Assembly: GCF_030814215.1 (NCBI RefSeq)
Contig: NZ_JAUSUT010000001.1
Location: forward strand, 4,836,001-4,900,000
DNA: 64,000 nt
Direction of reading: 5' to 3'
DNA from: Amycolatopsis thermophila
Lineage (GTDB): Bacteria > Actinomycetota > Actinomycetes > Mycobacteriales > Pseudonocardiaceae
Positions 7,394-59,174 of the stretch are shown here, piece by piece; positions within the stretch are counted from its first letter, which is position 1; each line of letters begins with the position of its first letter. The notes beneath the pieces are model-generated. The model had not been told where the DNA came from. It made no database searches and saw nothing but the letters and a program-made list of their open reading frames with translations. The position numbers and the translations under genes are program-made.

Positions 7394-7401
7394 TCACTCT
7401 C

Positions 7402-7407
7402 TACACT
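7402..7407 (+). promoter_or_regulatory. Putative -10 box
   Basis: TACACT lies 30 nt before the GTG of the lipoprotein gene; a GGAGGGAAGGA ribosome-binding stretch lies between them. Confidence 0.5.
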
Positions 7408-7437
7408 GAGCTGGCCGGTGCGGAGGGAAGGACGACG

Positions 7438-8943: not shown

Positions 8944-8986
8944 CCCGGCCGCGGCGGCGTTTCGCCAGGCCCGGCGGTCGGCCCGG

Positions 8987-9466
8987 TCAGTCCTTCGCGG
9001 CCGGGCTGGGGCGCGGTGCGGGCCGGGGGCGCGGACGACGAGCCGGGCGCTCCGGCGGACCGTCGCCTGCGGGGCGCTTGAGCCGCCCGCCCACGAACAG
9101 GCCCAAGCCGGCGGGGACGAGCACCAGCAGCGCCGTGAAGGCCGCACCACCGGTGATCGCCGGCCACAGCTCCTCGGTGCCGGTGCGGTCCACGAAGATC
9201 CCGCGCCCGATCACGTACAGCACCCCGGACACCGGCCCGGCGACCAGCGACGCGATGAACCACGTGCGCCCGGCGTCGGCGCGGCGCAGCCACGCGTCGA
9301 GCGCGCTCCACAGCGCCGCCGCGCCCACCAGCAGCGCGATCACGGCGATCCGGGTGGTGGTCAGGCCCGTCGGGTCGTAGACCGTCGCCTTCGCCAGCGC
9401 GATCTCGGCGATCGCGTGCAGCACCGCCATGCCCAGACCTCGAACCAGCCAGGACCGCATACCCAT
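8987..9466 (-). CDS. Four-helix membrane protein (B-4DMT family)
   Basis: A 159-residue integral membrane protein with four hydrophobic segments (about residues 5-25, 40-60, 70-90 and 105-125). A Pro/Arg-rich cytoplasmic tail (RPARRPRPRPAPRPSPAAKD) makes up the last 30 residues. It matches the small actinobacterial family annotated as B-4DMT transporters; the transported substrate is unknown. The ATG at 9466 was chosen; a second ATG two codons later is possible. It is divergent from the peptidase gene at 9500, and the two starts lie only about 33 bp apart. Confidence 0.7.
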   Translation of the reverse strand: MGMRSWLVRGLGMAVLHAIAEIALAKATVYDPTGLTTTRIAVIALLVGAAALWSALDAWLRRADAGRTWFIASLVAGPVSGVLYVIGRGIFVDRTGTEELWPAITGGAAFTALLVLVPAGLGLFVGGRLKRPAGDGPPERPARRPRPRPAPRPSPAAKD

Positions 9467-9487
9467 CCACCCATCGTCGCACCGCAC

Positions 9488-9493
9488 TAAGCT
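9488..9493 (+). promoter_or_regulatory. Putative -10 box, leaderless start
   Basis: TAAGCT ends 7 nt before the GTG at 9500, and no ribosome-binding site lies between; the mRNA probably begins at the start codon. Confidence 0.55.
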
Positions 9494-9499
9494 GCCACT

Positions 9500-10597
9500 G
9501 TGCCCGACCTCCACGCCTCGCGGCGAGATGCCTTGCGCACCGTGCTCAACGAGTCCGGCGTCGACGCGTTGCTCGTCACGGACCTGCTCAACGTCCGCTA
9601 CCTGACCGGCTTCACCGGTTCCAACGCCGTGCTCCTGGTCCACCGGGAGGGCGAGGCCCGCACGGTGTTCTGCACCGACGGCCGTTACACCACACAGGCC
9701 GCCGCCGAGGTGCCGGACCTCGAACGGGTCATCGAGCGCGAGTCCGCCGCGGCCCTGCTGGCCCGCGCGGCGGAGGAGGCCGCGGCCCACCGCCGCACCG
9801 GCTTCGAGAGCCAGCACGTCAGCGTCGAGGCGTACGACGGGTTCACCCGGATCGCCGAGGGCATCGAGCTGACCCGGGCCCCCGGCCTGGTCGAGCGGCT
9901 CCGGCTGGTCAAGGACGAGACCGAGATCGAGGCGCTGCGCATGGCGTGCGCGGCCGCCGACCGCGCGCTCGCCGGGCTGCTGGAGCACGGCGGCATCCGC
10001 CCCGGCCGCACCGAGCGCGAGGTCGCCCGCGACCTGGAGGACCGGATGCTCGACCACGGCTCGTCGGGGCCGTCGTTCGACTCGATCGTGGCCGCCGGGC
10101 CCCACTCGGCCATCCCGCACCACCGGCCCACCGACCGGGTGCTGCGCACCGGCGACTTCGTCAAGCTGGACTTCGGCGCGACGATCGACGGCTACCACTC
10201 GGACATGACCCGGACCGTCGTCCTCGGCCGCCCCGCGGCCTGGCAGGAGGACCTCTACGAGCTGGTCCGCCGCGCGCAGGAGACCGGCCTGGAAGCGTCA
10301 CTGGCCGGCCAGGAGGTCGCCGACGTCGACCTGGCCGCGCGGCGCGTCATCGAGCACGGCGGGCACGGCGAGGAGTTCTCGCACGGGCTCGGTCACGGCG
10401 TCGGGCTCGAGGTGCACGAGGCACCGAGGCTCGCCGAGAACGGCGCCGGTACACTGGCCGTCGGCATGACGGTCACCGTGGAACCAGGCGTCTACCTCGC
10501 CGGACGCGGTGGCGTGCGCATCGAGGACACGCTGGTCGTGCGGGACGCCGATCCCGAACTCCTCACCCTGAGCAGCAAGGAACTCGTGGTCGTGTAG
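9500..10597 (+). CDS. Xaa-Pro dipeptidase/aminopeptidase, M24 family
   Basis: A 365-residue cytosolic metallopeptidase that cleaves the bond before proline. The N-terminal creatinase-like domain (1-125) starts with ASRRDALRTVLNESGVDALLVTDLLNVRYLTGFTG-type sequence. The pita-bread domain carries the dinuclear metal ligands: two Asp in KLDFGATIDGYHSDMTRT, His in GLGHGVGLEVHEAP, Glu in TVEPGVYL and Glu in VRIEDT. It lies directly upstream of efp and nusB, which is the conserved actinobacterial order pepQ-efp-nusB. It has a leaderless GTG start. Confidence 0.93.
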   Translation: MPDLHASRRDALRTVLNESGVDALLVTDLLNVRYLTGFTGSNAVLLVHREGEARTVFCTDGRYTTQAAAEVPDLERVIERESAAALLARAAEEAAAHRRTGFESQHVSVEAYDGFTRIAEGIELTRAPGLVERLRLVKDETEIEALRMACAAADRALAGLLEHGGIRPGRTEREVARDLEDRMLDHGSSGPSFDSIVAAGPHSAIPHHRPTDRVLRTGDFVKLDFGATIDGYHSDMTRTVVLGRPAAWQEDLYELVRRAQETGLEASLAGQEVADVDLAARRVIEHGGHGEEFSHGLGHGVGLEVHEAPRLAENGAGTLAVGMTVTVEPGVYLAGRGGVRIEDTLVVRDADPELLTLSSKELVVV

Positions 10598-10633
10598 CGC
10601 GGCCCGATCGGAAACAGGAGAACTGGACAACCC

Positions 10634-11191
10634 GTGGCCACCACCAACGACCTGAAGAACGGCCTGGTGCTGAACCTGGACGGACAGCTGTGGTCCGTCG
10701 TGAACTTCCAGCACGTCAAGCCGGGCAAGGGTGGCGCCTTCGTGCGCACCACGCTCAAGCACGTGCTGTCCGGCAAGGTGGTGGACAAGACCTTCAACGC
10801 GGGCACCAAGGTCGACACCGCGACGGTCGACCGCCGCAACATGACCTACCTGTACAACGACGGGTCGGACTTCGTGTTCATGGACGGCGAGACCTACGAC
10901 CAGATCACGGTGCCGCGCGAGACCGTCGGCGACGGCGCGAACTACCTGCTGGAGAACACCGAGGTCCAGGTCGCGATGCACGAGGGCGTGGCGCTCTACG
11001 TCGAGCTGCCCACCTCGGTCGAGCTGGTCATCCAGCACACCGACCCGGGCCTGCAGGGCGACCGCTCCACCGGCGGCACCAAGCCGGCCACGCTGGAGAC
11101 CGGCGCCGAGATCCAGGTGCCGCTGTTCCTGAGCACCGGCGAGAAGGTCAAGGTCGACACCCGCGACGGCCGTTACCTGGGCAGGGCCTAG
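10634..11191 (+). CDS. efp: Elongation factor P
   Basis: A 185-residue translation factor that binds between the P and E sites and rescues ribosomes stalled on polyproline. The KOW-like N domain has the tip loop [10 protein letters not shown], where a lysine at about position 32 is the residue that contacts the P-site tRNA. OB domains II and III follow (YLENTEVQ-like, [26 protein letters not shown]). No epmA or epmB modification gene is in the window, and many actinobacterial EF-Ps work with unmodified lysine. A GTG start follows a GGAG in the 36-bp gap after the peptidase gene. Confidence 0.98.
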
Positions 11192-11192
11192 G

Positions 11193-11645
11193 TTGTCCGA
11201 CTCCGCATCGGCACCCCGGCGCGGCGGCCACGGCCGCCGCGCTCTGCGCAGGCGCGCCGTCGAGATCCTGTACGAGGCCGCGCAGCGTTCGCTCGATCCG
11301 GTGACGCTGCTCGCGGACCGGGTGGGTTCCACCGACGCCGACCCGGTCGGCGACTACACGATCTCGCTCGTCGAGGGCGTCACCGCGCACCGCGAGCGCA
11401 TCGACGAGCTGCTGGCCGAGCACGCGCACGGCTGGAGCCTGGACCGCATGCCGCCGGTCGACCTGGCGGTGCTGCGAGTGGGCGTCTACGAGCTGCTGTG
11501 GGCCGCCGACGTGCCGGACCCGGTCGCGATCGACGAGGCGGTCGGCCTGGCCAGGGAGCTGTCCACCGACGACTCGCCACGGTTCGTCAACGGCGTGCTG
11601 GGCCGGATCGGCACGATCGCCGACCGCATCCGGGCCGTGCTGTAG
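11193..11645 (+). CDS. nusB: Transcription antitermination factor NusB
   Basis: A 150-residue all-helical protein that, with S10 (NusE), binds boxA RNA and prevents premature termination in rRNA operons. Key segments are RRALRRRAVEILYEAAQR at the N-terminus, VEGVTAHRERIDELLAEH, DLAVLRVGVYELLW and the C-terminal DEAVGLARELSTDDSPRFVNGVLGRI. The start is taken as TTG at 11193, 2 nt after the efp stop; no ATG or GTG fits before the conserved region. A rho-independent terminator follows. Confidence 0.95.
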   Translation: MSDSASAPRRGGHGRRALRRRAVEILYEAAQRSLDPVTLLADRVGSTDADPVGDYTISLVEGVTAHRERIDELLAEHAHGWSLDRMPPVDLAVLRVGVYELLWAADVPDPVAIDEAVGLARELSTDDSPRFVNGVLGRIGTIADRIRAVL

Positions 11646-11659
11646 GAACTCGGCAGAAG

Positions 11660-11691
11660 AGCCCGGCGCGCGGAGATCGCGCCGGGCTTTT
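11660..11691 (+). terminator. Rho-independent terminator after nusB
   Basis: AGCCCGGCGCG (11660-11670) pairs with CGCGCCGGGCT (11679-11689) and is followed by TT. It sits between the convergent nusB and bldD genes and could serve both, though the T-run is better on the plus strand. Confidence 0.85.
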
Positions 11692-11709
11692 CGCTGGTCA
11701 GGGGCCTTC

Positions 11710-12198
11710 TCAGTCCTCCTTGGCGGGTCGCGCCTCGGGCGGCAGGACGCCCCAGTCGATGAGCTGCTCGGTCAGCTCGCCGGGGGTCATGTCGTAGATG
11801 ATGGCCAGCGACCGCAGGTCCTCGGTGCGGATGGACAGCACCTTGCCGTTGTAGTCGCCGCGCTGGCTCTGGATGGTGGCGGCGTAGCGGGCGAGCGGTC
11901 CGACCTTCTCGGCCGGCAGCTGCTGGAGCCGCTCCAGGTTGATGACGATCTTGGTGGCGGGTTCGGCCCCGGACGGCACCCGGCCCTCGGGCAGCAGCTC
12001 GACCACCGGTACGCCGTAGAAGTCGGCCAGCTCGGCCAGCTTCTGGACCGTCACGGCGCGGTCGCCACGCTCGTAGGAACCGACCACGACGGCCTTCCAA
12101 CGTCCGCCGGACTTCTGCTCGACCCCGTGCAGGGACAGACCCTGCTGCTGGCGGATCCCGCGGAGCTTCGCCCCGAGCGCCTTGGCGTAATCGCCCAT
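11710..12198 (-). CDS. bldD: Developmental regulator BldD
   Basis: A 162-residue DNA-binding repressor that, in Streptomyces, holds back sporulation genes when bound to cyclic-di-GMP. The N-terminal Xre-type helix-turn-helix spans about residues 5-65 (KLRGIRQQQGLSLHGVEQ, VGSYERGDRAVTVQKLAELA). The C-terminal domain keeps the c-di-GMP signature RxD-x8-RxxD: RGD, eight residues, then RTED in RGDYNGKVLSIRTED. All ligand-contacting residues of that motif are present, so it should respond to c-di-GMP. It is transcribed away from the pyr operon and ends at the shared terminator. Confidence 0.97.
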   Translation of the reverse strand: MGDYAKALGAKLRGIRQQQGLSLHGVEQKSGGRWKAVVVGSYERGDRAVTVQKLAELADFYGVPVVELLPEGRVPSGAEPATKIVINLERLQQLPAEKVGPLARYAATIQSQRGDYNGKVLSIRTEDLRSLAIIYDMTPGELTEQLIDWGVLPPEARPAKED

Positions 12199-41256: not shown

Positions 41257-42243
41257 ATGGCGATGACCGCCGCCGTGAAGGACGAGCTCAGCAGGCTGCA
41301 GATCACGAAGATCGGGCCGCGCCGGTCCGAAGTCGCGTCGATGCTGCGCTTCGCCGGTGGCCTGCACATCGTGGGGGGACGGGTGGTGGTGGAGGCCGAG
41401 CTCGACACCGGTTCGGTCGCGCGACGGCTGCGCAAGGAGATCCACGAGCTGTACGGGCACCATTCGGACGTGCACGTGCTGTCCGCGGGCGGGTTGCGCA
41501 AGACGACGCGGTACATCGTCCGGGTGGTTCACGACGGGGAAAGCCTGGCCCGTCAGACGGGGCTGATCGACCAGCGGGGGCGCCCGGTGCGGGGCCTGCC
41601 GGCCGCGGTGGTGTCCGGCGGGATCGCGGACGCCGAGGCCGCTTGGCGCGGGGCGTTCCTGGCGCATGGTTCGCTCACCGAGCCGGGGCGTTCGTCGTCG
41701 CTCGAGGTCACCTGCCCGGGGCCCGAGGCGGCGCTGGCTCTCGTCGGGGCGGCGCGGCGGATGGGCATCCAGGCCAAGTCCCGCGAGGTGCGGGGCGCGG
41801 ACCGGGTGGTGGTGCGCGACGGCGACGCGATCGGTGCCCTGCTGACGCGCCTGGGCGCGCACGCGAGCGTCCTGCAGTGGGAAGAGCGCCGGATGCGCCG
41901 TGAGGTCCGGGCGACGGCCAACCGGCTGGCCAACTTCGACGACGCCAACCTGCGCCGTTCCGCCCGCGCGGCGGTCGCGGCGGCCGCTCGGGTGGAACGA
42001 GCGCTGGACATCCTGGCCGACACCGCGCCGGAGCACCTGCTGGCGGCGGGCCGGCTGAGGCTGGACAACCGGCAGGCGTCGCTGGAGGAGCTGGGCCAGC
42101 TGGCCGACCCGCCGATGACGAAGGACGCGGTCGCCGGGCGCATCCGCAGGCTCCTCGCCATGGCCGACAAGCGGGCCAAGGAGCTGAACATCCCGGACAC
42201 CGAAAGCGCGGTGACGCCGGACATGCTGGAAGAAAGCGTGTAG
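41257..42243 (+). CDS. whiA: Sporulation/cell-division regulator WhiA
   Basis: A 328-residue DNA-binding protein that, with WhiB, activates septation genes during sporulation in Streptomyces. The N-terminal LAGLIDADG-like domain (about 10-215) has [28 protein letters not shown] and [16 protein letters not shown]. The C-terminal helix-turn-helix has [33 protein letters not shown]. The ATG at 41257 follows a GGAGGGG ribosome-binding site. Together with bldD in this window it indicates a developmentally complex actinomycete. Confidence 0.97.
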
Positions 42244-46973: not shown

Positions 46974-47675
46974 TCAGGTGGCGTCGTGGAAGACGAGGCC
47001 CAGGGTGTGGCGGATGCCGGTGCGCAGGGTGCTCACGCCGTGCCGCACCGGCGCCGCCGACCAGCCGCGCGTGGACCGCACCGGGCGGTCGCGGGTGGTG
47101 AAGATCAGCCCGTGACCCTGCGGGAGCACGGTCACCGTGCCGCGCGACTGGGCCCGCGGTCGCTGCTCGACCAGCAGGAACTCGCCGCCGGTGTGGTCGG
47201 TGCCGGGCTTGTCGAGGCCGATCACGACCTGCAGCGGGAACACCAGGTCGCCGTAGAGGTCGCGGTGCAGCGCGTTCCAGTCACCGGCGCGGTAGCGCAG
47301 CAGGATCGGCGTGGGCCGCCGCTGACCGGCCCGGTGACACCGGTCGAGCCAGCTGTCCAGGTCGTCCGGCCACGGCGCGTCCCACCCGAGCTTCGCCGCC
47401 CAGTCCCGCGCGATCGGCAGCAGGCGCGGGTAGAACGCCGCCCGCAGCTGCGCGACCGGATCGGGCAGCGGGTAGTCGAAGTAGCGGTACTGGCCGGACC
47501 CGAACCGGAAGCGCGCCATGTCGATCGTGGACCGGAATCGGCCCACGTCGTCGTACAGCGCCGACAGTTCGCGGCACTCCGCGGCGCTGAGCAGGGGCGG
47601 GGTCAGGGCGCAGCCGGAGTCGTCCAGCTCCGCGGTGAGGGCGGGCCAGTCGAAGCCCGCGACATCCGAGATCAC
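46974..47675 (-). CDS. 2OG-Fe(II) oxygenase
   Basis: A 233-residue non-heme iron oxygenase. The iron ligands H137 and D139 are in NALHRDLYGDLVFPLQ and the distal H212 in VRHGVSTLRTG; a C-terminal Arg (LRTGIRH) would bind 2-oxoglutarate. This pattern fits the bacterial Oxygenase-NA family of 2OG enzymes whose substrate is not known. It starts at a GTG (47675) and is convergent with gpgS: TGACGCGTCA (46967-46976) is a palindrome that supplies both stop codons. Confidence 0.82.
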   Translation of the reverse strand: MISDVAGFDWPALTAELDDSGCALTPPLLSAAECRELSALYDDVGRFRSTIDMARFRFGSGQYRYFDYPLPDPVAQLRAAFYPRLLPIARDWAAKLGWDAPWPDDLDSWLDRCHRAGQRRPTPILLRYRAGDWNALHRDLYGDLVFPLQVVIGLDKPGTDHTGGEFLLVEQRPRAQSRGTVTVLPQGHGLIFTTRDRPVRSTRGWSAAPVRHGVSTLRTGIRHTLGLVFHDAT

Positions 47676-47904: not shown

Positions 47905-49383
47905 GTGCGTGACTCGGACCTGATCAGCGGGGGGCTGGTGGACGAGGGCCTGGCCCGGCGGCTCAAGGCGCTCGCCTGCACCGCGCCCCTGCACGACCTC
48001 GACGCGCGCAAGGCCAAGCTGGACTGGGCCGACGCGACCGTCTACCAGATGGCCGAGATCGCGCTGCACACGATCGACCTGGTCACCATCGCGATGGACT
48101 TCGACACCGGCGCCGACCACGACGACGTCGTGCGCCGCCTGCAGCCGTTCATCGCCGCGCAGGCCCCGCGCCGCCCGGCCGAGGAGCACCTGCGCGTGGC
48201 CCGCTGGGTGCTGGACAACCTGATCAACGTCGGCACCACCGACCGCGGTTTCCGCCGGGTCTACGGCAGCGTCGACGCGCACGGCACCTACCGCCGCCGC
48301 GCGTTCGACTTCAAGCTGCTCGTCGAGCTGGCCGCCCCGGACGGCGAGGTGTACCTGCGGGCCAGCGACGAGGCGATCAACGTCCTGGTGGGCGCGCTGG
48401 ACACCGACGTCGAGTCCGCGCAGATCGCGGCCGAGGTCAAGCTGGAGAACCTGATCAGCCGCGGCCGCCTCGCCGACGCCAAGCTCGCCGCCGAGCAGGC
48501 CCGCTACCGCACCGTGCAGTACGGCGAGACGCTGCGCGCCAAGCTCGACGCGACCCGCCGGGACGTGCGCGCCGTGGACTGGGACCGCGAGATGCCCGAA
48601 CTGCTGGACTCCGCGCTGACCCACATCGAGTCCCGCTTCCGCGCCGAGAACGCGATCCTGCGCAACATCACCGCCGCCCGCGACGAGGCCGAAGACGTCG
48701 ACCACAAGCGGCGCGCCGCCGAACTGGTCGACATCGTCAGCGACTGCATCAGCAGGCACACCCAGTTGCAGGCGCGGCTGCAGGCCGCGGGCGCGGTGTT
48801 CCGCGCCGAGCAGGACCGCCAGCAGTTCTCCGGGCCGCCGCAGCGCGCGACCGTGGACCTGTTCGGCCAGATCCTCATGCCCGCGCTGGAACTGCCGATC
48901 GCCGACGCGGTGTCGCCGCTGGAGTCCTACTTCCACGCCTCGGCCGGGCTGGTCGTGCCGACCGTGCCCGCGTTGCCGTCGCTGGTCTCGCTGCTGCTGC
49001 GCCCGGCCCCGGAACGCGACAAGCTGGTCGGCGAGGTGCCCGAGCCGGAGCTCGTCCCGCCGGAGAGCCTGGACCACTACAGTGACGAGCAGTGGCGGCG
49101 GGCCGACGAGCTGCTGGACCTGCCGGAGGTGCCGCGGCGGCTGTCCGGCGTGCTGGCCGAGGCCCGCGAGCTGGACCCGGAGCTGCCGCGTCTGGTGGCG
49201 CTGCGGGCGCTGCACTCCTACAGTCCCGAGGTGGGCGCCGCCGTCCGGCAGGGGGACGATCGCGCGCTGCTCGCCGTCGACGACGGCACGCTGCTGGACG
49301 ACGCCGAGTTCGGCGGCGCCGACCTGCTGCTGAGCACGGCGCGGCTGGCACGCGACGAGGACGACGAAGAGGGGGCGGCATGA
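47905..49383 (+). CDS. MukF/JetA-like (kleisin-type) subunit of an SMC complex
   Basis: A 492-residue, largely helical, acidic protein. The N-terminal part (1-170) looks like winged-helix and helical segments (YQMAEIALHTIDLV, FKLLVELAAPDGEVYLRASDEAINVLVGALD). The middle has long amphipathic helices (KLAAEQARYRTVQYGETLRAKLDATRRDV; SALTHIESRFRAENAILRNI), and the tail is very acidic (DEDDEEGAA). Segments like LRASDEAINVL followed by a long helical bundle are typical of MksF/JetA. Size, acidity and its place before a small winged-helix gene and an SMC-like gene match MukF (440 residues) and JetA. Identity rests on context and layout, not on a database match. Confidence 0.7.
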   Translation: MRDSDLISGGLVDEGLARRLKALACTAPLHDLDARKAKLDWADATVYQMAEIALHTIDLVTIAMDFDTGADHDDVVRRLQPFIAAQAPRRPAEEHLRVARWVLDNLINVGTTDRGFRRVYGSVDAHGTYRRRAFDFKLLVELAAPDGEVYLRASDEAINVLVGALDTDVESAQIAAEVKLENLISRGRLADAKLAAEQARYRTVQYGETLRAKLDATRRDVRAVDWDREMPELLDSALTHIESRFRAENAILRNITAARDEAEDVDHKRRAAELVDIVSDCISRHTQLQARLQAAGAVFRAEQDRQQFSGPPQRATVDLFGQILMPALELPIADAVSPLESYFHASAGLVVPTVPALPSLVSLLLRPAPERDKLVGEVPEPELVPPESLDHYSDEQWRRADELLDLPEVPRRLSGVLAEARELDPELPRLVALRALHSYSPEVGAAVRQGDDRALLAVDDGTLLDDAEFGGADLLLSTARLARDEDDEEGAA

Positions 49384-49469
49384 GGACTGCTGGCAGGTCC
49401 GAATCATTCAGCGGCATGCCTGCCGACGCGCTGCCGCGGCTTGCCGCGTCCGTTGAGGGGGCGGCATGA
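49380..49469 (+). CDS. Possible 29-residue coupled ORF between the F- and E-like genes
   Basis: ATG at 49380 overlaps the F-like stop (ATGA), and the ORF's own TGA overlaps the ATG of the E-like gene (ATGA). It encodes MRTAGRSESFSGMPADALP plus ten more residues ending VEGAA, so both it and the upstream protein end in EGAA. The 86-bp segment is bounded by direct repeats GAGGGGGCGGCATGA (49370-49384 and 49456-49470). It may be an insertion or duplication that happens to keep translation coupled, or a genuine micro-protein. No ribosome-binding evidence separates these options. Confidence 0.3.
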   Translation: MRTAGRSESFSGMPADALPRLAASVEGAA

Positions 49470-50266
49470 CGCGTCCGGTCACCACCGGCGACGCCGAGAG
49501 CGCGGCACGGCTGATCTCGTTCGGCATGCGGCCCAAGCACCTGCCCTCGCGGGACGTCGTCTACGCGGACCTGGTGCGCCGCTACGGCGAGGACAGCGCG
49601 TTCAAGCAGCTGACCAACTCCGTCGCCGCGGGCCTGGGCCTGATGGTGCTCGACGTCAGCCACCAGGCCGGCGCGGTGCTGGCCGCCACCGACGAGTCGG
49701 TGTTCGAGGTCAAGATGGACGGCTACGCGCGGCAGAGCAAGATCCGCGAGCGCCGCGACACCGAGAAGGTGCTGCACGGCCTGGTGCACCTCGCGACCGC
49801 CGCGCTGGGCTACCCGCGCCCGGACGACCTGGCCAACGACACCTACATCGGCCGGGTGAGCGTCGATCAGGTGGACGGCGTGGTGCGGGAGGCGTGCCGC
49901 ATCCTCGACGAGCGCGCCGCCAAGGCCGAGGCGAACAACGACCCGCTGTCCGACTCGCCGGAGCTGGAACAGGCCTGGCGCGCCTACGCCCGCCGTCCCG
50001 AGGCGGCGGCGACCAAGGACGGCCGCCTGGCCTCGGACACCACGCGGGGCATGGTGTCGCGCGCGTTGCGGTTCCTGGCCGATCAGGGGTTCCTGGTGCA
50101 GGTGAGCGGCGAGCAGGGCGGCACCTACCGGACCACGCCGCGCTACCAGGTGCAGGTGCGGGAACTGGCCGCGGACAGCGCGTTCGAGGAGCTGCTCGCG
50201 CTCGGCGTGGTCGCCGTCGGCGACGGCGGCGGCACGCTGCGCCCGTCCATTTCGGACACTCTGTAG
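49466..50266 (+). CDS. MukE/JetB-like winged-helix (KITE-type) subunit
   Basis: A 266-residue protein located between the kleisin-like and SMC-like genes, where mukE/jetB sits in characterised operons. Predicted winged-helix units are seen at about residues 35-85 (VYADLVRRYGEDSAFKQLTNSVAAGLGLMVLDV) and 185-235 (DTTRGMVSRALRFLADQGFLVQVSG, then YRTTPRYQVQVREL). This two-winged-helix plan is that of KITE subunits, which bind the kleisin. E. coli MukE is 234 residues. The ATG overlaps the preceding small ORF; the stop is 10 bp before the SMC gene. The assignment is by layout and predicted fold. Confidence 0.65.
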   Translation: MTRPVTTGDAESAARLISFGMRPKHLPSRDVVYADLVRRYGEDSAFKQLTNSVAAGLGLMVLDVSHQAGAVLAATDESVFEVKMDGYARQSKIRERRDTEKVLHGLVHLATAALGYPRPDDLANDTYIGRVSVDQVDGVVREACRILDERAAKAEANNDPLSDSPELEQAWRAYARRPEAAATKDGRLASDTTRGMVSRALRFLADQGFLVQVSGEQGGTYRTTPRYQVQVRELAADSAFEELLALGVVAVGDGGGTLRPSISDTL

Positions 50267-50276
50267 GGGGAGACTG

Positions 50277-53200
50277 GTGTACGAGTTGTCCCGGGTGCGC
50301 CTGCACTCGGTCGGACCGGCGGGCGCGCGGTACCAGAACGTGGTGCTCGACTTCAGCGGCGTCGGCCCGCTGGTCAAGGCGCCCGCGCAGGACGCGCTCT
50401 TCACCGCGGGCATCCACACCGCCGACGGGAGCCTGCCGCGGCGGCCCTCGCCGGCGAGCGTGCTGTTCCTGGAGAACGGTGGCGGCAAGTCGGTGCTGAT
50501 CAAGCTGATCTTCTCGGTCATGCTGCCCGGCCGGCGCCAGGTGGTCGGCACCACGAGCACCCGCGTCCTGGAGAAGTTCGTCGCCGCCAAGGACGTCGCG
50601 CACGTCGTGCTGGAGTGGCAGCACACCGAGACCGGGCAGCGGGTCATCACCGGGAAGGTGTCGGAATGGCGCGGGCACGTGGTGTCCAACGACCCGGCGA
50701 ACCTGGTCGACTCGTGGTACTGCTTCCGGCCCACCGCGTCGCTGGGCCTGGAGTCGCTGCCGTTCACCGACGACGGCCGCCTGCTGACCATGTCCGGGTT
50801 CGCCGAGCAGCTGGAGCGGGCGCACAAGGCCGAGCCCGAGCTGGAGCTGTTCACCACCCGCCGCCACCACGAGTGGACCGAGCGGCTGGACGCCCTGGGC
50901 CTGGACACCGAGCTGTTCCGCTACCAGCGCGCGATGAACGCCGGCGAGGGTGAGGCGGCCGACGCGTTCGCCTTCACCTCGGACGAGGCGTTCGTCGAGT
51001 TCCTGCTGCGCGCGGTGATCCACGAGGACGATCCGCGGGACCTGGCGGAGGTCGTGCAGACCTACGCGCACAACCTCGGCCAGCGCGGCGAGCTGATGAG
51101 CGAGCGCGACTTCGTGGCCGGTGCGCTGGAGCTGCTGACGCCGCTCACCGAGGAGGAGTCGCTGGCCGCGGCGTCCCGCAAGCTGGCCGCGGCCGCCCGC
51201 GAGGAAGCCCGTGCCCTGGCCGGGTCGGTCCTCGCGCGGCACGACCTGGAGGCCGACCGGCTCGACGGGATCAAGTCCTATGTGGACGAGACGCGGGACG
51301 CGGAGAAACTGGCCGAGGGCGACCACCGGCGCCGCACCGCGGTGGTGACCGAGCTGCGCCGCCTGGTCGGCGAGCTGCGGCTGGCGGACGCGACCGCCGA
51401 GAAGAAGCGCCTGGACGAGGAGCTGCGGGAAGCCCGCGCGGCCGCGGCGGCGTGGCGGGAGACCGGCACCGTGCTGGCGCACGTCAACGCCGCGCAGAAG
51501 GCGGCCGGCATCCGCAAGCTGGTCGGCGATCGCGAGCAGAGCGCGAAACCCGCGCTGGAGGCCAAGAACGCGGCGGCCACCGCACTGGCGCGCGGGCTGC
51601 TGGCCCTGGCGCGGGAGGCCGAGGCGCAGGCGCGCGCCGCCGAGTCCCGCGCCGAGACCGCCCGGTCCGCCGCTGCGGCGGCGCAGGACCAGCGGGACGA
51701 GGCCACCGCCACCGCGGCCGGGCAGCGCGCGGAGCTCGGGCAGCTGACGCGCCGCATCGACGAGGTGCGCAGCCAGGTGCAGCAGGCCGTCCGCGAAGGG
51801 CTGCTCACCGACGGCACGCAGGTCGCCGCCGCGGCCCAGGAAGCGCGCACCCGCGGCGAGAACGCGGTCACCGAGCTGGCCGCGCGGGAGAGCGAGCTGG
51901 AGGCCGTGGCCGAGGACCACGCCCAGGCGCAGGCCGCCCTGCACACCGCGCAGCAGCGGGCCGCGACGGCGCGCTCCCGGTCCGAGCACGCGGCCGGGGA
52001 ACTGGCCAAGGCGCACCGCCGATCGGACAGCCTCGCCGCGCACCCCCGGCTGCTGGAGCTGCTCGGCGGTGACTCGGTCCAGCTGGAGACCGACACGCCG
52101 GCCCTGCTGACGCGGCTGCGCGAGGCGCGGGCCGCCGCCGAGCGTGAGCAGACCGCGCTGCGCATGGAGGAGTCGGTCGACGAGCGCGCGCTGGCCGCGC
52201 TCGGCAACGGCGGCCTGCTGCCCGCGCTGCCCGAGGTCCAGTCCGCTTTGGACGTACTGGAAGCGGCCGGGATCACGGCGCGATCAGGGTGGCGCTACCT
52301 GTCCACGATGGACGCCGCCGGACGCGAGCGGGTGCTGCGGGACCTGCCGCACCTGCTCGGCGGGGTGCTGATCAACGACCCCGCGCAGCTGGACCGCGCG
52401 CGGCAGGCCCTCGCCACCGCGAAGCTGCTGCCCAGCGTGGTGCTGCCGGTCGGCACCACCGAGGCCGTGCGCGCCGAGGGCACCGCGCCGGGCGTGGAGT
52501 TCCTGGTCCCGCCGAACCCGGCGATGTACGACGAGGACGCCGCCGACACCGAGCGCCAGGCGATCGCGGCCCGGCACGCCCGGCGGCAGAAGCAGCTCGA
52601 GGCGCTGGCTTCGGCCATCAACGACGACGCCGCACTGGAGTGGAAGCTCACCACGTGGCGCGAGGACTACCCGGCCGGGGCGCTGGCCACGCTCGCCGAG
52701 GAGGCCGAGGCCGCGGCCACCGAGCTGTCCGAGGCCGAGGCCGCGGCCACCGCGCAGGAGCGGGCCGTGGCGGATCTGGCCGCGCGGCGGGCCCGGTTGC
52801 GCGAGACGATTCCGGCCCTGCGAGCCGAAGCCCGCGCCGGCGAGGAACGGGCCCGCAAACTCGGCGAGCTGGCGCAGCGCGTCGCGCTGATTCCCCAGTG
52901 GACCGAGTCCGCCGAGCGCGCGCAGGAGGCCGTCGCCCGCGCCGAGGCCGAGGCCGAGCAGGCGGCGACCCGTGCGGCGCGGCTGCGCGAGGAGGCGGCC
53001 GAGGAGCAGCGCACCGCCGACGGCCACCGCCGCACGGTGACGCACGCCAGGGCCGAGCTCGCCGAGGTGCCGGGCGGGGGATCGGTGTCCGAGGACGAAC
53101 CGGTGCCCGCCGAACCGGTCGACGCGCTGCGCCGCACCTTCGCCGCGGCGAGCGACGCCTACGCCCGCGTCGAGGTCGGCAGCGACCTGCGGGCCGAGCT

Positions 53201-54719
53201 GGACCAGGCGGAGAGCGCGGAGTCGGCGGCGCGCGCGGCGCTGGAGGCACTCGACCCGGACGTGCGGGAGCGCGCGGCGCGCCTGCTGGAGACCCCGGAC
53301 GGCTCGGACGCGGCGACGCGCGCCGCGGCACTGGCGCGGGCGGGACGCACGGTGTCGGCGCTGGAGGCCGAGCACACCGAGGCGATCGGTCTCGTCGCGA
53401 CGTGCAAGGCCGAGCTGGACCAGCTGCCGAGGCAGAACGCGTCGCCGGAGGTCCGGCCGCGCGACGTCGAGCACGGCCGCGAGCTGATCGAGGAAGCGGC
53501 GGAGGAGGCGTCCGCGGCCGCCCGGGCCCTGGAGGAAGCCCAGGCGCGGCGGGCCGAGGCCGAACGCACGCTGGAGTCGGCGACCGCGTCCGCGGCCGGG
53601 TTCAAGATGCTCGCCGAGTCGCTGGCGCACCTGGCGCCCGAGGGCGAACCGGAGACGGTGTTCGACGGCGACATCGACGCCGCGCAAGCCCGCTACCGCA
53701 AGCTGAACACGACGCTGACCGACGCCGAGGCCGCGGTGGACAGCGCCGAGAAGCGGGTCCGCGCGGCGGCGGACGCCCTGGCCCAGTACGCGACCGACAA
53801 GCGGTTCGAGAAGCTGAGCAGCCCGGTGCGGCAGCAGATCGTGTCGGTGCGCCGGGACAGCCTGCCCGCGCACGCGCGGGAGTGGACGGCCGCGCTCAAG
53901 CCGCGGCTGCGCACGCTGACCGACGACCTGGCGCAGATCGACCGGCACCGGTCGGGGATCGTCGCGCGGTTGCAGGGCATGGTCGAGGGTGCGCTGCGGA
54001 TGCTGCGGTCGGCGCAGCGGCTGTCCCGCCTGCCGGAGGGGCTGGGTGGCTGGTCGGGGCAGGAGTTCCTGCGCATCCGGTTCGGCGATCCGGAGGAGCC
54101 GCAGCTGTCCGAGGCGCTGGGACAGGTCGTGGACGAGGCGGCGGCCGGCAGGACCAGCGACGGTCGCGACGTGAAGCGGGACGGGATGTCGCTGGTGCTG
54201 CGCGGCGTGCGGGCGGCGGTGCCCAAGGGGTTCCGGGTGGACATCCTCAAACCGGACTCGGTGCTGCGGACCGAGCGGCAGCGGGTGTCGGAGATCCGGG
54301 ACGTGTTCTCCGGCGGGCAGCAGCTCACCGCGGCGATCATCCTGTACTGCACCCTGGCGGCGCTGCGGGCGAACAACCGCGGCATGGTGCGCAACCGGCA
54401 CTCCGGGGTCTTGTTCCTGGACAACCCGATCGGCCGCGCGTCCGCCGGGTACCTGCTGGAGTTGCAGCGGGTGGTCGCGGAGGCGCTCGGCGTGCAACTG
54501 ATCTACACGACGGGCCTCTTCGACGCCGGCGCGCTGTCGGAGTTCCCGTTGATCGTCCGCCTGCGCAACGACGCGGACCTGCGCGCCGGCCGCAAGTACC
54601 TCTCGGTCGACGCCACGATCCGCAACCACCTGGATGACCTGGGCGAACCGGACGGCACGGCGCGCATCTCGGCCACCCGGCTGTTCACCAAGCCCGGCGA
54701 GCAGGCGGAGAGCGCCTGA
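50277..54719 (+). CDS. MukB/JetC-like SMC ATPase with atypical Walker motifs
   Basis: A 1480-residue SMC-type ATPase, close in size to E. coli MukB (1486). Residues 1-280 form the N-terminal head lobe with the P-loop LENGGGKSV (Lys71, Ser72); the usual first Gly of GxxxxGKS is Leu. Two very long Ala/Glu/Arg-rich coiled coils (about 285-640 and 760-1230) flank a hinge-like globular domain (about 645-755: ALPEVQSALDVLEAAGI, RDLPHLLGGVLINDP, VVLPVGTTEA). The C-terminal head has the ABC signature FSGGQQLT (Ser1345) and Walker B VLFLDNPIGRAS (Asp1382), where the catalytic Glu is Asn1383. The GTG start follows GGGGAGA. It probably works with the two upstream products in DNA loop extrusion or plasmid/phage restriction; no JetD gene is downstream. 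Confidence 0.85.
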   Translation: MYELSRVRLHSVGPAGARYQNVVLDFSGVGPLVKAPAQDALFTAGIHTADGSLPRRPSPASVLFLENGGGKSVLIKLIFSVMLPGRRQVVGTTSTRVLEKFVAAKDVAHVVLEWQHTETGQRVITGKVSEWRGHVVSNDPANLVDSWYCFRPTASLGLESLPFTDDGRLLTMSGFAEQLERAHKAEPELELFTTRRHHEWTERLDALGLDTELFRYQRAMNAGEGEAADAFAFTSDEAFVEFLLRAVIHEDDPRDLAEVVQTYAHNLGQRGELMSERDFVAGALELLTPLTEEESLAAASRKLAAAAREEARALAGSVLARHDLEADRLDGIKSYVDETRDAEKLAEGDHRRRTAVVTELRRLVGELRLADATAEKKRLDEELREARAAAAAWRETGTVLAHVNAAQKAAGIRKLVGDREQSAKPALEAKNAAATALARGLLALAREAEAQARAAESRAETARSAAAAAQDQRDEATATAAGQRAELGQLTRRIDEVRSQVQQAVREGLLTDGTQVAAAAQEARTRGENAVTELAARESELEAVAEDHAQAQAALHTAQQRAATARSRSEHAAGELAKAHRRSDSLAAHPRLLELLGGDSVQLETDTPALLTRLREARAAAEREQTALRMEESVDERALAALGNGGLLPALPEVQSALDVLEAAGITARSGWRYLSTMDAAGRERVLRDLPHLLGGVLINDPAQLDRARQALATAKLLPSVVLPVGTTEAVRAEGTAPGVEFLVPPNPAMYDEDAADTERQAIAARHARRQKQLEALASAINDDAALEWKLTTWREDYPAGALATLAEEAEAAATELSEAEAAATAQERAVADLAARRARLRETIPALRAEARAGEERARKLGELAQRVALIPQWTESAERAQEAVARAEAEAEQAATRAARLREEAAEEQRTADGHRRTVTHARAELAEVPGGGSVSEDEPVPAEPVDALRRTFAAASDAYARVEVGSDLRAELDQAESAESAARAALEALDPDVRERAARLLETPDGSDAATRAAALARAGRTVSALEAEHTEAIGLVATCKAELDQLPRQNASPEVRPRDVEHGRELIEEAAEEASAAARALEEAQARRAEAERTLESATASAAGFKMLAESLAHLAPEGEPETVFDGDIDAAQARYRKLNTTLTDAEAAVDSAEKRVRAAADALAQYATDKRFEKLSSPVRQQIVSVRRDSLPAHAREWTAALKPRLRTLTDDLAQIDRHRSGIVARLQGMVEGALRMLRSAQRLSRLPEGLGGWSGQEFLRIRFGDPEEPQLSEALGQVVDEAAAGRTSDGRDVKRDGMSLVLRGVRAAVPKGFRVDILKPDSVLRTERQRVSEIRDVFSGGQQLTAAIILYCTLAALRANNRGMVRNRHSGVLFLDNPIGRASAGYLLELQRVVAEALGVQLIYTTGLFDAGALSEFPLIVRLRNDADLRAGRKYLSVDATIRNHLDDLGEPDGTARISATRLFTKPGEQAESA

Positions 54720-54744
54720 CGCCGGTCCCGGTTCCCCAGGCGGG

Positions 54745-55230
54745 TCAGCCGCGGACGGCCGCCTGGTACGCGGCCAGCTCGCCGGGGTCGTCGATGCTGC
54801 CGTGGTGGTGGAACTGCGCCCACCGGCCGTTCTCGTAGCGGAAGTACCGGCTGGTGCGGATCCGCAGCGGCACCTCACGGCCGTCGACCACGTACGAGCC
54901 GGTCTCCCGCCCGGCGAACAACGCGTGGCCCTCGCCGGCGTACTCCACGATGTCGCCGAACGTCACCGTCACCCTTGCCGGCCCGTGGAAGACCTTGTCG
55001 TACAGCGCGGTGATCTCCGGGCCGCCACGCAGGATGCCGCCCAGGGGGTTGTTGAGCTGGGCCAGCGCGTCGCCGGTCCAGACCTGCGCGAACACGTCCA
55101 GATCGCGCTGGTTGAAGGCGAAGTAGAAGGTTTCCAGCGCGGCCAGCGCGCCTTCGGCGCCGGGTGTGGCGGCCGCGTCCAGCCGGTTGCGCGAGTCCGG
55201 GCCGAAGGTGCTCTCGAGGCGTCGGGTCAT
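54745..55230 (-). CDS. SnoaL/NTF2-like protein
   Basis: A 161-residue single-domain protein of the NTF2/SnoaL fold: LAALETFYFAFNQRDLDVFAQVWTGDALAQL at the N-terminus is the typical helix with aromatic residues, and later strands include VTFGDIVEYAGEG, LRIRTSRYFRYENGRWAQFHHHGSIDDP. Such proteins act as small-molecule isomerases, hydrolases or binding proteins; no substrate can be named. It is divergent from an ArsR-type regulator, whose candidate operator lies just beyond its start. Expression is probably controlled by that regulator. Confidence 0.8.
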   Translation of the reverse strand: MTRRLESTFGPDSRNRLDAAATPGAEGALAALETFYFAFNQRDLDVFAQVWTGDALAQLNNPLGGILRGGPEITALYDKVFHGPARVTVTFGDIVEYAGEGHALFAGRETGSYVVDGREVPLRIRTSRYFRYENGRWAQFHHHGSIDDPGELAAYQAAVRG

Positions 55231-55251
55231 GTCCGCTCCTGCCGTCTAGAA

Positions 55252-55297
55252 TGTTCGATGGAGGTCGACCAGATGAGTGTACGACAATCATCGAACA
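55252..55297. promoter_or_regulatory. Candidate operator with 9-bp inverted repeat
   Basis: TGTTCGATG (55252-55260) and CATCGAACA (55289-55297) are perfect reverse complements separated by 28 bp. They flank the start of the ArsR-type gene and lie 22 bp from the start of the divergent SnoaL-like gene, a good position for autoregulation of both. Confidence 0.5.
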
Positions 55298-55620
55298 GTG
55301 CGCGAGCGCGCGGGCTGACCCACGTCCACCCCAGGGACGTCTCGCTGCAGGACGCGCTCACCGCCGTCGCGGATCCGGTGCGCCGCGCGATCCTGCGCGA
55401 GCTGGCGGAACTGCCGGACTGGACCAAGGCGTGCGGCACCTTCGACCTGCCGGTCACCAAGGCCACGCGCAGCCACCACTTCGCCGTGCTGCGCGCGGCC
55501 GGCCTGATCGAGCAGCGCGACGAGGGGCCGCGCCGCCTCAACCGGCTGCGCCGCCCGGAGTTCGACGACGCCTTCCCCGGCCTGCTGGACCTGGTGCTGG
55601 CTAATCCTTCCGGCCGTTGA
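55273..55620 (+). CDS. ArsR-family winged-helix regulator
   Basis: A 115-residue helix-turn-helix protein: VSLQDALTAVADPVRRAILRELAELPDW is the usual ArsR N-terminal helix pair, followed by recognition-helix sequence PVTKATRSHHFAVLRAAGLIEQRDEG. Metal-binding cysteines typical of ArsR/SmtB are absent (only one Cys, in KACGTFD), so it is more like the non-metal subgroup. ATG 55273 is preferred because GGAGGT at 55260-55265 is well spaced; an ATG at 55258 is in frame. Its 3' end overlaps the convergent LysE-type gene by 20 bp. Confidence 0.85.
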   Translation: MSVRQSSNSARARGLTHVHPRDVSLQDALTAVADPVRRAILRELAELPDWTKACGTFDLPVTKATRSHHFAVLRAAGLIEQRDEGPRRLNRLRRPEFDDAFPGLLDLVLANPSGR

Positions 55621-56245
55621 GCGCGAGGCCCGCGCCGAGGCCGATCATCACCAGCCCGCCGGTGCCGCCGATCAGTTCGAGCCGCCTCGGCGAGCGGGCG
55701 AACCAGGCGCGCGCGGTGCCGGCGACCAGCGCCCACGCGCTGTCGGAGAACACCGCGATCGCCGGCAGCGCGATGCCCAGCAGCATGATCTGCACCGGCA
55801 CGCTCCCGGCCGCGTCGTCGACGAACTGCGGCAGCACCGCGGCCAGGAACACGATCGACTTCGGGTTGGCGAAGCCGACCACGAACCCGTCCCGCAGCAC
55901 GGTGAGCGTGCGCCCGCGGGTGGCCGGCACCGCGCTCGCCAGCGCCTCGGACAGCTTGCGGCGGTGCCGGACGGCCTGGACACCCAGGTAGACCAGGTAC
56001 GCGGCGCCGGCCAGCTTGATCACCGTGAACACCGTCGCCGACGTGCGCACGATCGCGCCCATCCCGAACGCCACCGCCACGACCTGCGCGTACACCCCCG
56101 CCGCGTTGCCGAGCACCGTGATCAGCGCGTCCCGCCGCCCGACGGTCAGCGCGCGGCTCACGGTGAACAGCACGCTCGGACCGGGGACGACCACCATCAC
56201 GAACACCAGGGCGGCGAAGGCCGCGAAGTGGCTGGGCGACACCAT
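55601..56245 (-). CDS. LysE/RhtB-family exporter
   Basis: A 214-residue inner-membrane amino-acid or metabolite exporter. The N-terminus SHFAAFAALVFVMVVVPGPSVLFTVSRALTVG carries the family Pro-Gly-Pro motif. About six hydrophobic segments follow, with LVYLGVQAVRHRRK and VGFANPKSIVFLAAVLPQF typical of the family. It could export a compound sensed by the neighbouring ArsR-type regulator, but the genes are convergent and overlap at their ends. ATG 56245 was chosen; upstream in-frame GTG is possible. Confidence 0.9.
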   Translation of the reverse strand: MVSPSHFAAFAALVFVMVVVPGPSVLFTVSRALTVGRRDALITVLGNAAGVYAQVVAVAFGMGAIVRTSATVFTVIKLAGAAYLVYLGVQAVRHRRKLSEALASAVPATRGRTLTVLRDGFVVGFANPKSIVFLAAVLPQFVDDAAGSVPVQIMLLGIALPAIAVFSDSAWALVAGTARAWFARSPRRLELIGGTGGLVMIGLGAGLALNGRKD

Positions 56246-56320
56246 CACCCGAGCGTATCGCTGCCGCCGGCCGGGTGACGAACGGTTTAACCGCAGGTCG
56301 AACGGGTTACCGTGAGAGGG

Positions 56321-56824
56321 ATGAGTGGATACCCGCCCACCGAGACCACCGAGCCCGACTACCGCCGGTTGTGGGCCGGCGGGGTGGCGACGGCCGTCGT
56401 CGCCGCGCTGGTGGTCGTGGTCGGGTTGCTGATCGCGCGCGGCCTGTTCGGGGCCGAGGTCCTGGCGCCGAAGGGCAACGGCATCTGGGGCAACGCCAAC
56501 ACCGTCACCTACGCGCTGTGCGCCGCCGCCGCGGCGCTGCTGGCCACCGGCCTGATGCACCTGCTCAGCCTGGCCACGCCCGCCCCCGGCCAGTTCTTCG
56601 GCTGGATCATGGTGCTGATCACCGCGATCGCGATCGTGCTGCCGTTGACGCTGTCGGTGCGGCTGGAGGCCAAGATCGCCACGGCGCTGATCAACCTCGC
56701 CATCGGCGCGATGATCACCATGCTCATCAACACCATGGCGGGCGCGGCCCGGCGCCGCCGCCGCGGCCGCGACGCCACGCAGCCCACCGCCAGGTGGGAC
56801 AACGGGCCGCCGTACTACTCCTGA
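56321..56824 (+). CDS. Four-helix membrane protein, DUF6069-like
   Basis: A 167-residue membrane protein with four predicted helices (about residues 19-42, 62-85, 92-112, 117-140), a conserved-looking loop APKGNGIWGNANTVTYAL after the first helix and a basic tail (RRRRRGRD). The pattern matches the actinobacterial DUF6069 group; the function is unknown. The ATG at 56321 has GAGAGGG just upstream; a GTG three codons earlier is possible. Confidence 0.7.
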   Translation: MSGYPPTETTEPDYRRLWAGGVATAVVAALVVVVGLLIARGLFGAEVLAPKGNGIWGNANTVTYALCAAAAALLATGLMHLLSLATPAPGQFFGWIMVLITAIAIVLPLTLSVRLEAKIATALINLAIGAMITMLINTMAGAARRRRRGRDATQPTARWDNGPPYYS

Positions 56825-56855
56825 AACCGTCGGTGCCCGGTGGTACAACCGCCGG

Positions 56856-58022
56856 GTGAGCAGGAAACTGGGGAACGACCAGCGCCGCGCCCGGATGGTC
56901 GCGCGGCACCACCTCGCCGGGCAGGCGGACGGCCCCGAACAGGTCGCCGCGAGCCTCGTCGCGCTGCACGCCACCGATCCGGCCACCGTCCACCTCGCGG
57001 TGCTCGCCCGTTCCGCCGCGGGCACCGACGACGTCGAGCGCGCCCTCTATGACGACCGGTCCCTGGTGCGGATGCTCGGCATGCGCCGGACCATGTTCGT
57101 CGTGCCCGCGGCGCTCGTGCCGGTCGTCCAGGCGGCCTGCGCCGACGACATCGCGCGACGGCAGCGCAAGCTCCTGCTCCAGCACCTGGGCACCGCCGGC
57201 CTCGAGGGCGACCTCGATGCCTGGCTCGCCGAGGTCGAGGAGGGCGCCTACGCCGCCCTCCGGGCCGGCGAACCCGCCTTCGCCCAGCAGATCGCCGACG
57301 GCGAACCGCGCCTGCGCACCGAGATCGTCATGGCGGAGGGCAAGCCGTACGAGGCGCGCGGCTACATCACCAACCGCGTGCTGTTCCTGCTCGCCGCGCA
57401 GGGGCGCATCGTGCGCGGCCGCCCCCGCGGCACCTGGCTGTCCACCCAGTACGCCTGGTCCACCGCCGAAACGTGGCTGCCCGGGCTCGAACCGCTCGAC
57501 GCCGACACCGCCCGGGCCGAGCTGGCCAGGCGCTGGCTGTCCGCCTTCGGGCCGGCCCCGGTGGCCGACCTCAAGTGGTGGACCGGCTGGACCGCCGGCC
57601 AGGTGAAGAAGGCGCTCGCCGCGATCGGCCCGGCCGAGGTCGACCTGGACGGCGGCCCGGGCATCGCGCTGCCCGGCGACGACGAGCCGGTCCCCGAGCC
57701 GGAGCCGGCCGCCGCGCTGCTCCCGGCGCTCGACCCGACGCCGATGGGGTGGCAGGAGCGCGGCTGGTTCCTGGGCGAGCACCAGCCGCTGCTGTTCGAC
57801 CGGACCGGCAACATCGGCCCGACCGTGTGGTGGGCGGGCCGCGTGGTCGGCGGGTGGGCGCAGCGCCCCGGCGGGGAGATCGCGATCCGTCTGCTCGAGG
57901 ACATCGGCGCGGACGCCACCGCCGCGGTGGAGGCGGCCGCGGACCGGTTGCACGGCCGCCTCGGCGGGCTGACCGTCATACCGAAATTCCGGACGTCCGT
58001 CGAGCGAGATCTGTCATCTTGA
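56856..58022 (+). CDS. Winged-helix DNA-binding protein, HTH_42/AlkZ-like
   Basis: A 388-residue protein of the HTH_42 superfamily, which includes the DNA interstrand-crosslink glycosylases AlkZ and AlkX and many related proteins. Signatures are the N-terminal RMVARHHLAG-Q-ADGPEQVAASLVALHATDPATVHLA, the RMLGMRRTMFVVP segment, and C-terminal TVWWAGRVVGGWAQRPGG. The characteristic catalytic Q-hydrophobic-Q or Q-hydrophobic-D pair is not clearly visible, so a repair role is possible but not shown. It starts at a GTG and precedes the gap operon. Confidence 0.8.
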   Translation: MSRKLGNDQRRARMVARHHLAGQADGPEQVAASLVALHATDPATVHLAVLARSAAGTDDVERALYDDRSLVRMLGMRRTMFVVPAALVPVVQAACADDIARRQRKLLLQHLGTAGLEGDLDAWLAEVEEGAYAALRAGEPAFAQQIADGEPRLRTEIVMAEGKPYEARGYITNRVLFLLAAQGRIVRGRPRGTWLSTQYAWSTAETWLPGLEPLDADTARAELARRWLSAFGPAPVADLKWWTGWTAGQVKKALAAIGPAEVDLDGGPGIALPGDDEPVPEPEPAAALLPALDPTPMGWQERGWFLGEHQPLLFDRTGNIGPTVWWAGRVVGGWAQRPGGEIAIRLLEDIGADATAAVEAAADRLHGRLGGLTVIPKFRTSVERDLSS

Positions 58023-58034
58023 TCGTCCTCTTGA

Positions 58035-59174
<1,140 letters not shown>

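Follow-up and report, generated by a model that had tools for sequence, protein, structure and literature searches.

A 64,000-nucleotide stretch of the Amycolatopsis thermophila chromosome (contig NZ_JAUSUT010000001.1, positions 4,836,001 to 4,900,000; hereafter, the window) carries three co-directional genes, jetA, jetB and jetC, which, judging from their sequences, almost certainly encode a type III Wadjet-like JetABC trio without a recognisable JetD nuclease. The trio is probably a domesticated condensin, similar to MksBEF, that the cell possesses in addition to SMC. Below, we describe the proteins, their distribution in Pseudonocardiaceae and Streptomyces, one case of secondary acquisition of jetD and the functions that might account for these observations.

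A JetABC trio without a recognisable JetD

The original prediction, made from the window sequence without database searches, described an operon of 492, 266 and 1480 codons similar to MukFEB and Wadjet but devoid of a JetD gene. Its coordinates were exact, and the three open reading frames (ORFs) were confirmed, all of them being picked by a codon-usage gene caller. The Wadjet part of the predicted likeness held and could be narrowed to type III: JetA matched the JetA3 family of PADLOC (Table 1), and JetC matched JetC3 (PDLC00588) over residues 2-1478 with a score of 1943 bits. Kinship with MukFEB, by contrast, was not demonstrable in sequence. No MukB or JetC chain was recovered from the Protein Data Bank (PDB) either by phmmer with JetC (nothing at E<=0.1) or with a JetC profile (20 unrelated chains, best E=0.04), and JetA yielded nothing useful against PDB sequences. 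Pfam searches with the three proteins were uninformative, JetA having no Pfam match at all.

The predicted SMC ATPase with a hinge-like midpoint was borne out by the JetC sequence, which contains a Walker A motif (FLENGGGKS), an ABC signature (FSGGQ) and a Walker B-like motif (LFLDNP), as well as a better conserved stretch, richer in proline, glycine and aromatic residues, at the expected hinge site (approximately residues 641-760). Among 79 JetC sequences compared, JetD-bearing and JetD-less, the Walker A (FLENGGGKSVL) and Walker B-like (LFLDNPIG) segments were invariant, and FSGGQ was found in all 78 sequences whose form at that site was displayed. Motif decay in the JetD-less copies was thus rejected. 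JetB matched the JetB3 model of PADLOC (PDLC00573) weakly (E=0.03), and the JetB models, at E<=0.1, also miss two JetD-bearing loci of relatives (L041 and L050). The AlphaFold model of JetB (22-row alignment, mean pLDDT of 71.8) was structurally nearest to KITE-bearing complexes, from which all nine best rows originated; as modelled, JetB thus appears to be KITE-like, in line with the type predicted for the second protein.

Two features of JetC are recorded here as side observations. In SMC proteins, the residue following the Walker B aspartate is usually the catalytic glutamate. In JetC, asparagine occupies this position (D1382-N1383; window 54420-54425) in 79/79 sequences, and it is found also in distant JetD-bearing copies. 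Furthermore, JetC of Streptomycetaceae (L113-L150) carries an insertion of at least 15 residues just before the hinge region, at approximately residue 600 of the window JetC (35 of 36 sequences).

The window JetC scored 18 bits against TIGR02168 (the SMC_prok_B equivalog, cut-off 567) and is thus not of the Smc-ScpAB type. A standard SMC (TIGR02168, 980 bits) is encoded elsewhere in the same genome, so that the JetABC trio is additional to it.

The host genome consists of one contig of 7.3 Mb and is 99.7% complete. When the window was searched by tblastn with three JetD proteins, the AlkZ-like gene gave the only match, 48 aa long and attributable to chance (E=0.69), consistent with the predicted lack of JetD near the operon. 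At the genome level, PF09983 (JetD_C) found nothing at E<=10 and PDLC00594 (JetD3) nothing at E<=0.01, and PF09664 (DUF2399) had one match below the cut-off (E=0.63), which is not a convincing JetD. Positive controls were detected by PF09983 in Bacillus subtilis and Corynebacterium glutamicum and by PDLC00594 in C. glutamicum; the latter model also picks the jetD gene in the JetABCD loci of three relatives (E of 8e-101, 9e-115 and 1e-48). With JetD unrecognised genome-wide and a standard SMC also present, the choice put forward in the original prediction, between an additional condensin of an actinomycete and a defence-type complex with its effector encoded elsewhere, is supported.

Distribution and genomic settings of the trio

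Our family sample comprised 100 Pseudonocardiaceae genomes, including that of the window, from 46 genera. JetC3 was present in 31 genomes of 14 genera. Eleven of the positive genera were sampled more than once, and in ten of these every genome had JetC3 (27/27); in the remaining one, it was found in 1 of 3 genomes, in a distant JetABCD. The three further positive genera were represented by one genome each. Among the ten, both copies of genus g19 were accompanied by JetD, and genus g5 included copies with and without it. JetD3 matches at E<=0.01 occurred in 12 of the 100 genomes and were strong in 5, each adjoining a JetC; the other 7 were weak (E of 2e-6 to 3e-3), covered 67-132 profile positions within longer ORFs and were not counted. 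An adjacent jetD conserved among relatives, which the original prediction had named as contrary to it, was not found: jetD was absent next to 27 of the 32 full-length JetC copies, namely, 24 of the 29 loci with called neighbourhoods and those of genomes G073, G081 and G084, in which the JetD3 model matched nothing at E<=0.01. The copy count leaves out G092 (L060), whose JetC match is partial (positions 2-202).

The gene caller missed jetD in L045; in L057 it joined jetD to a jetC containing a frameshift, and in the lower-GC loci L041, L050 and L060 it left genes uncalled. For this reason, jetD was sought by tblastn, with three and then five JetD queries, and with the family model over whole genomes; these searches led us to reject the possibility that JetD had been overlooked through distance or gene calling. 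Downstream of jetC, G074 (E=0.07) and G040 (E=0.96) each have a weak jetD-like stretch, which was left as chance or remnant. In L057 (G056, 6611-12034), jetC of a JetABCD locus is frameshifted near its 3' end, the N-terminal frame continuing into the jetD frame; this split may represent a pseudogene, a sequencing error or recoding.

Many of the family copies occupy one core neighbourhood, after whiA and before gap-pgk-tpiA-secG, and others (e.g., L036, L046 and L048) lie elsewhere. We take the genes preceding whiA to be uvrC-rapZ-yvcK and those following gap to be pgk-tpiA-secG (pgk and tpiA in the window), based on our own reading of the sequences and on known gene order. Among 36 JetD-less named Pseudonocardiaceae loci, GAPDH was in the fetched flank of 31 and WhiA in that of 16; the survey of gene order across the family thus showed that the JetD-less trio recurs upstream of gap. 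Genome G095 contains a JetD-less trio (L040) in the whiA-gap place and a lower-GC JetABCD (L041; 62-71% by 2-kb window) elsewhere.

The named loci were the best 80 of at least 547 when sorted by similarity to the window JetC, of which the nearest relatives are those of A. deserti, A. thermalba and A. tucumanensis (93% identity). In six of these 80, jetD follows jetC: Tamaricihabitans halophyticus, A. rifamycinica, Nocardiopsis lucentensis, Actinoallomurus soli, Frankia tisae and Streptomyces sp. NRRL S-455; because the loci were ranked, 6/80 is not a fair frequency, and further JetD-less groups may lie outside the best 80. Whole-genome JetD3 searches covering 25 of the 80 loci gave a strong match solely in A. 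rifamycinica, and weak matches in two others (G106 and G120, E of approximately 5e-4) were not counted as JetD. In L101 the contig breaks off within jetC and in L125 shortly downstream of it, and L116 starts inside the operon. Genes following jetC in L036 (Rieske/DUF5914), L047 (HupE/UreJ-like) and L057 (a methyltransferase protein) were considered as effectors and rejected.

In Streptomyces, the trio is nearly universal. Within a sample of 101 genomes of one genus (g51), taken as Streptomyces from the named loci and a split JetC match, JetC3 was present in 100, including 98/98 of good quality; the single genome missing it is 78% complete. JetD3 (E<=1e-20) was found in only 9 of the 101. Among the matches listed, seven of these nine genomes have JetD coordinates that adjoin a second JetC copy, distinct from the common one; in G424 and G390, no JetC is listed next to JetD. 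Both copies were fetched for G376, where the JetD-bearing locus has a GC content of 64.6% and the JetD-less one of 72.7%. In G454, JetC and JetD lie near both ends of a single contig of approximately 9.2 Mb (C1, 11107-16697 and 9222617-9228027), placed as if within terminal inverted repeats.

The 37 JetD-less Streptomycetaceae loci are mostly found in a common setting other than gap-pgk-tpiA. By our own reading of the sequences and of known families, genes for a GntR-type regulator and 5-oxoprolinase presumably precede the trio there, and a conservon-like set follows it. The possibility of a partner encoded upstream of the trio in Streptomyces was rejected: by reading rather than family search, the 231-aa gene before jetA appears to encode the GntR-type regulator, preceded by the 5-oxoprolinase cluster.

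Sampling the phylum evenly, we detected JetC3 at E<=1e-50 in 11 of 246 genomes, that is, the window's own, seven Streptomyces and three others. JetD3 was present in all three of these others and in one of the seven Streptomyces. Five of the nine JetD3-positive genomes of this sample (E of 5e-10 to 2e-24) had no JetC by PDLC00588 at E<=1e-50.

Acquisition of jetD, selection and possible functions

The history of jetD could be followed most closely in A. rifamycinica, whose JetA, JetB and JetC are 98%, 99% and 95% identical, respectively, to those of the jetD-less A. vancoresmycina. In the A. rifamycinica locus (L100), nucleotide similarity to three siblings ends at approximately 12408, near the end of jetC, and restarts at 13495, right after jetD. 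The sequence following jetD corresponds to the last jetC codons and stop of these three and a fourth sibling, and similar tails end jetC in sister species. Moreover, the inserted jetD has a GC content of 66% compared with 74% for the adjacent jetC, and between A. rifamycinica and Tamaricihabitans JetD is 36% identical whereas JetC is 62% identical; in the 44 other pairs among ten JetD-bearing loci, the identity of JetD falls short of that of JetC by no more than 8 points. The similarity break, the leftover jetC tail, the lower GC content and the identity gap together indicate that jetD was gained on a JetD-less background at least once. Loss of jetD instead was rejected, since several siblings would each have to have undergone an identical deletion and since the leftover tail resembles the jetC tails of sister species. 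In Tamaricihabitans, a jetC tail was looked for after jetD and none was recognised.

A first tree was built from 29 JetC sequences, with that of G056 trimmed to 1300 residues owing to its frameshift. The second, obtained by a quick method from 60 of 88 rows (28 were removed by hand), has long branches and a midpoint root and requires at least six changes of the JetD label. Given the uncertain root, we limit our claim to two separate JetD-less groups and one clear gain. For L046 and L048, the direction of change (gain or loss of jetD) could not be polarised.

We estimated dN/dS by the Nei-Gojobori method for 13 hand-picked close pairs, two of which included A. rifamycinica. The ratios were 0.04-0.19 for jetA, 0-0.14 for jetB and 0.065-0.20 for jetC; where comparable in those pairs, gap and pgk gave 0.03-0.27 and 0.07-0.28, respectively. 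These values indicate that the jetABC genes are under purifying selection.

The case of A. rifamycinica raises the possibility that JetABC is a standby platform, occasionally re-armed, or a decaying remnant that outlives the loss of JetD. Members of the Pseudonocardia group in the tree with jetD (G050) and without it (G082) occupy one place, as might be expected of such a platform. Nevertheless, we judge this very improbable, because the low dN/dS and unchanged motifs of the JetD-less copies, along with their presence in 98/98 good Streptomyces genomes, argue for a present function without JetD.

A second alternative is that JetABC partners a nuclease, unrelated or highly diverged, whose gene lies at another chromosomal site. 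Our searches covered the JetD families PF09983, PDLC00594 and PF09664 alone, and an unrelated nuclease would escape them. However, in JetD-bearing type III loci of the same family and of Streptomyces, jetD is directly after jetC. Furthermore, within the fetched flanks, no candidate replacement effector common to both JetD-less groups recurs, with the reservation that lower-GC genes may have escaped the gene caller: besides jetABC, two gene clusters occur in both Streptomyces and Pseudonocardiaceae loci, each of them once on the Pseudonocardiaceae side. An effector acting in trans is thus improbable, and the lack of a neighbouring gene resembling a shared replacement effector favours the extra-condensin reading over it.

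In the reading that we prefer, JetABC would be a complete motor of the kleisin-KITE-SMC kind, descended from type III Wadjet and with JetA as the putative kleisin, that lacks the JetD nuclease and is retained within a stable chromosome. It would load on DNA and extrude loops like other Wadjet and MukBEF motors; lacking a cutter, it would serve as a second condensin alongside SMC and contribute to chromosome organisation or segregation. A motor that is kept while the cutter is absent, its presence in nearly all genomes of whole genera, the recurrent loci and the purifying selection are best explained by such a role. Two points weigh against it. The re-arming in A. rifamycinica suggests that coupling of the platform to JetD may still be possible, and the trio might control plasmids without cutting them.

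The latter would be a form of defence in which JetABC recognises small circular DNA and entraps, compacts or silences it, limiting the copy number of plasmids and integrative elements. Smc5/6 acts on extrachromosomal DNA in this manner. The motor motifs, which are the same as in JetD-bearing relatives, are compatible with such a function, as is the division of labour described for type I Wadjet, in which JetABC senses DNA shape by loop extrusion and JetD cuts (PMC10586767). Conversely, the trio is near-universal in whole genera and has a recurrent chromosomal site, unlike the patchy JetD3 of the same samples. We count against it also that both Streptomyces and Amycolatopsis are known to have small circular plasmids. 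On balance, we regard non-cutting defence as unlikely.

Extending the second-condensin reading to both groups, we put forward, at about even odds, that a nuclease-free Wadjet-derived SMC complex serves all Streptomyces as a second condensin and is among the core complexes of many Pseudonocardiaceae. It would have been disarmed in two or more lineages, adopted for chromosome maintenance and sometimes re-armed by a foreign jetD at the end of jetC. A defence system may thus have entered routine chromosome upkeep in Streptomyces. The passage of SMC complexes between immunity and chromosome upkeep is traceable here within living families: entire genera have the disarmed form in nearly every genome, some of these genomes also contain armed members of that protein family, and A. 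rifamycinica shows re-arming. In the genetically tractable Streptomyces, the near-universal trio could be an overlooked chromosome organiser. A JetC match by itself is no proof of plasmid defence.

Organisation of the locus and comparison with known systems

The features of the locus are listed in Table 1. As predicted, the gene following jetC encodes a SnoaL-like protein on the opposite strand. In the window, jetA and jetB do not overlap: a 15-bp repeat occurs twice at their junction, with an 86-bp step from one copy to the next (chance expectation of 0.03). The repeat contains ATGA, the jetA stop and jetB start; unlike the window, most of the 36 JetD-less Pseudonocardiaceae loci have a short overlap at this junction (-4 to -1). 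A 30-base piece from the middle of the junction had no match in the other fetched loci, the window's own copy (L011) excepted, and RNA folding gave no signal there (z of -0.19). Two predicted DNA-damage genes lie near the trio, encoding an Oxygenase-NA family protein (46974-47675) and an AlkZ-like DNA glycosylase (56856-58022); the AlkZ-like cluster occurs in 26 of the 36 JetD-less Pseudonocardiaceae loci.

Table 1. Features of the jetABC locus (window coordinates)
Feature	Position	Strand	Description
whiA, upstream syntenic anchor	41257-42243	+	Three WhiA Pfam domains; cluster upstream of jetA in many relatives
jetA (JetA3-type, putative kleisin position)	47905-49383	+	GTG start, 492 aa; PADLOC PDLC00567, E=1.4e-210
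jetA-jetB junction	49369-49469	+	15-bp direct repeat GAGGGGGCGGCATGA at 49369-49383 and 49455-49469
jetB (KITE-like subunit, winged-helix protein)	49466-50266	+	266 aa
jetC (SMC ATPase, JetC3 type)	50277-54719	+	GTG start, 1480 aa; PADLOC PDLC00588, E=0
jetC-to-gap interval without jetD	54720-58187		SnoaL-like (-), ArsR-type HTH (+), LysE (-), 167-aa ORF (+), AlkZ-like glycosylase (+)
gap (GAPDH), downstream syntenic anchor	58188-59174	+	GAPDH by Pfam

Wadjet has been reported in 42% of Actinobacteria and, in Streptomyces, mostly near chromosome ends (PMC10482375); the word JetD is absent from the main text of that survey of actinobacterial defence. PADLOC reports MukFEB cases, without JetD, as Wadjet 'other' (PMC9252829), and since this class takes JetD-less cases, such trios are visible in PADLOC output. 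Streptomyces SMC is under current study, as described in PMC13121528, which also cites a paper from 2024 on MksB as a condensin in mycobacteria. Judged by title and abstract, none of the open-licence papers listed in our searches describes a JetD-less type III trio as a core complex of Streptomyces or Amycolatopsis, although other papers may touch on it.

Compared with type III Wadjet (JetABCD), the window trio has the same jetA-jetB-jetC order, the JetA3 and JetC3 families and the ATPase motifs of JetD-bearing relatives. However, no JetD adjoins it or is recognised genome-wide, and it occupies a recurrent core locus upstream of gap-pgk-tpiA, whereas type III Wadjet is a patchy accessory locus. 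The gene order of MukBEF is the same as that of the window trio, and a KITE-like middle subunit is common to both; by contrast, the window complex is additional to SMC, and its JetC has no detectable sequence homology to MukB chains in PDB searches. In Escherichia coli, MukB takes the place of SMC (PMC13121528). MksBEFG of C. glutamicum and EptABCD of Mycobacterium smegmatis are also actinobacterial Wadjet-family complexes additional to SMC, but they retain the MksG/JetD nuclease and affect plasmids (PMC10123090, PMC12287153). A review finds it tempting to trace MukBEF and MksBEF back to Wadjet (PMC10586767, section 7). In contrast to MksBEF of Pseudomonas aeruginosa, the window complex is of the JetA3/JetC3 type and includes a JetC that matched no solved SMC in sequence. 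MksBEF is likewise a nuclease-free three-gene SMC complex beside the standard SMC, and its coexistence with SMC in P. aeruginosa provides a precedent for a second condensin (PMC7485682).

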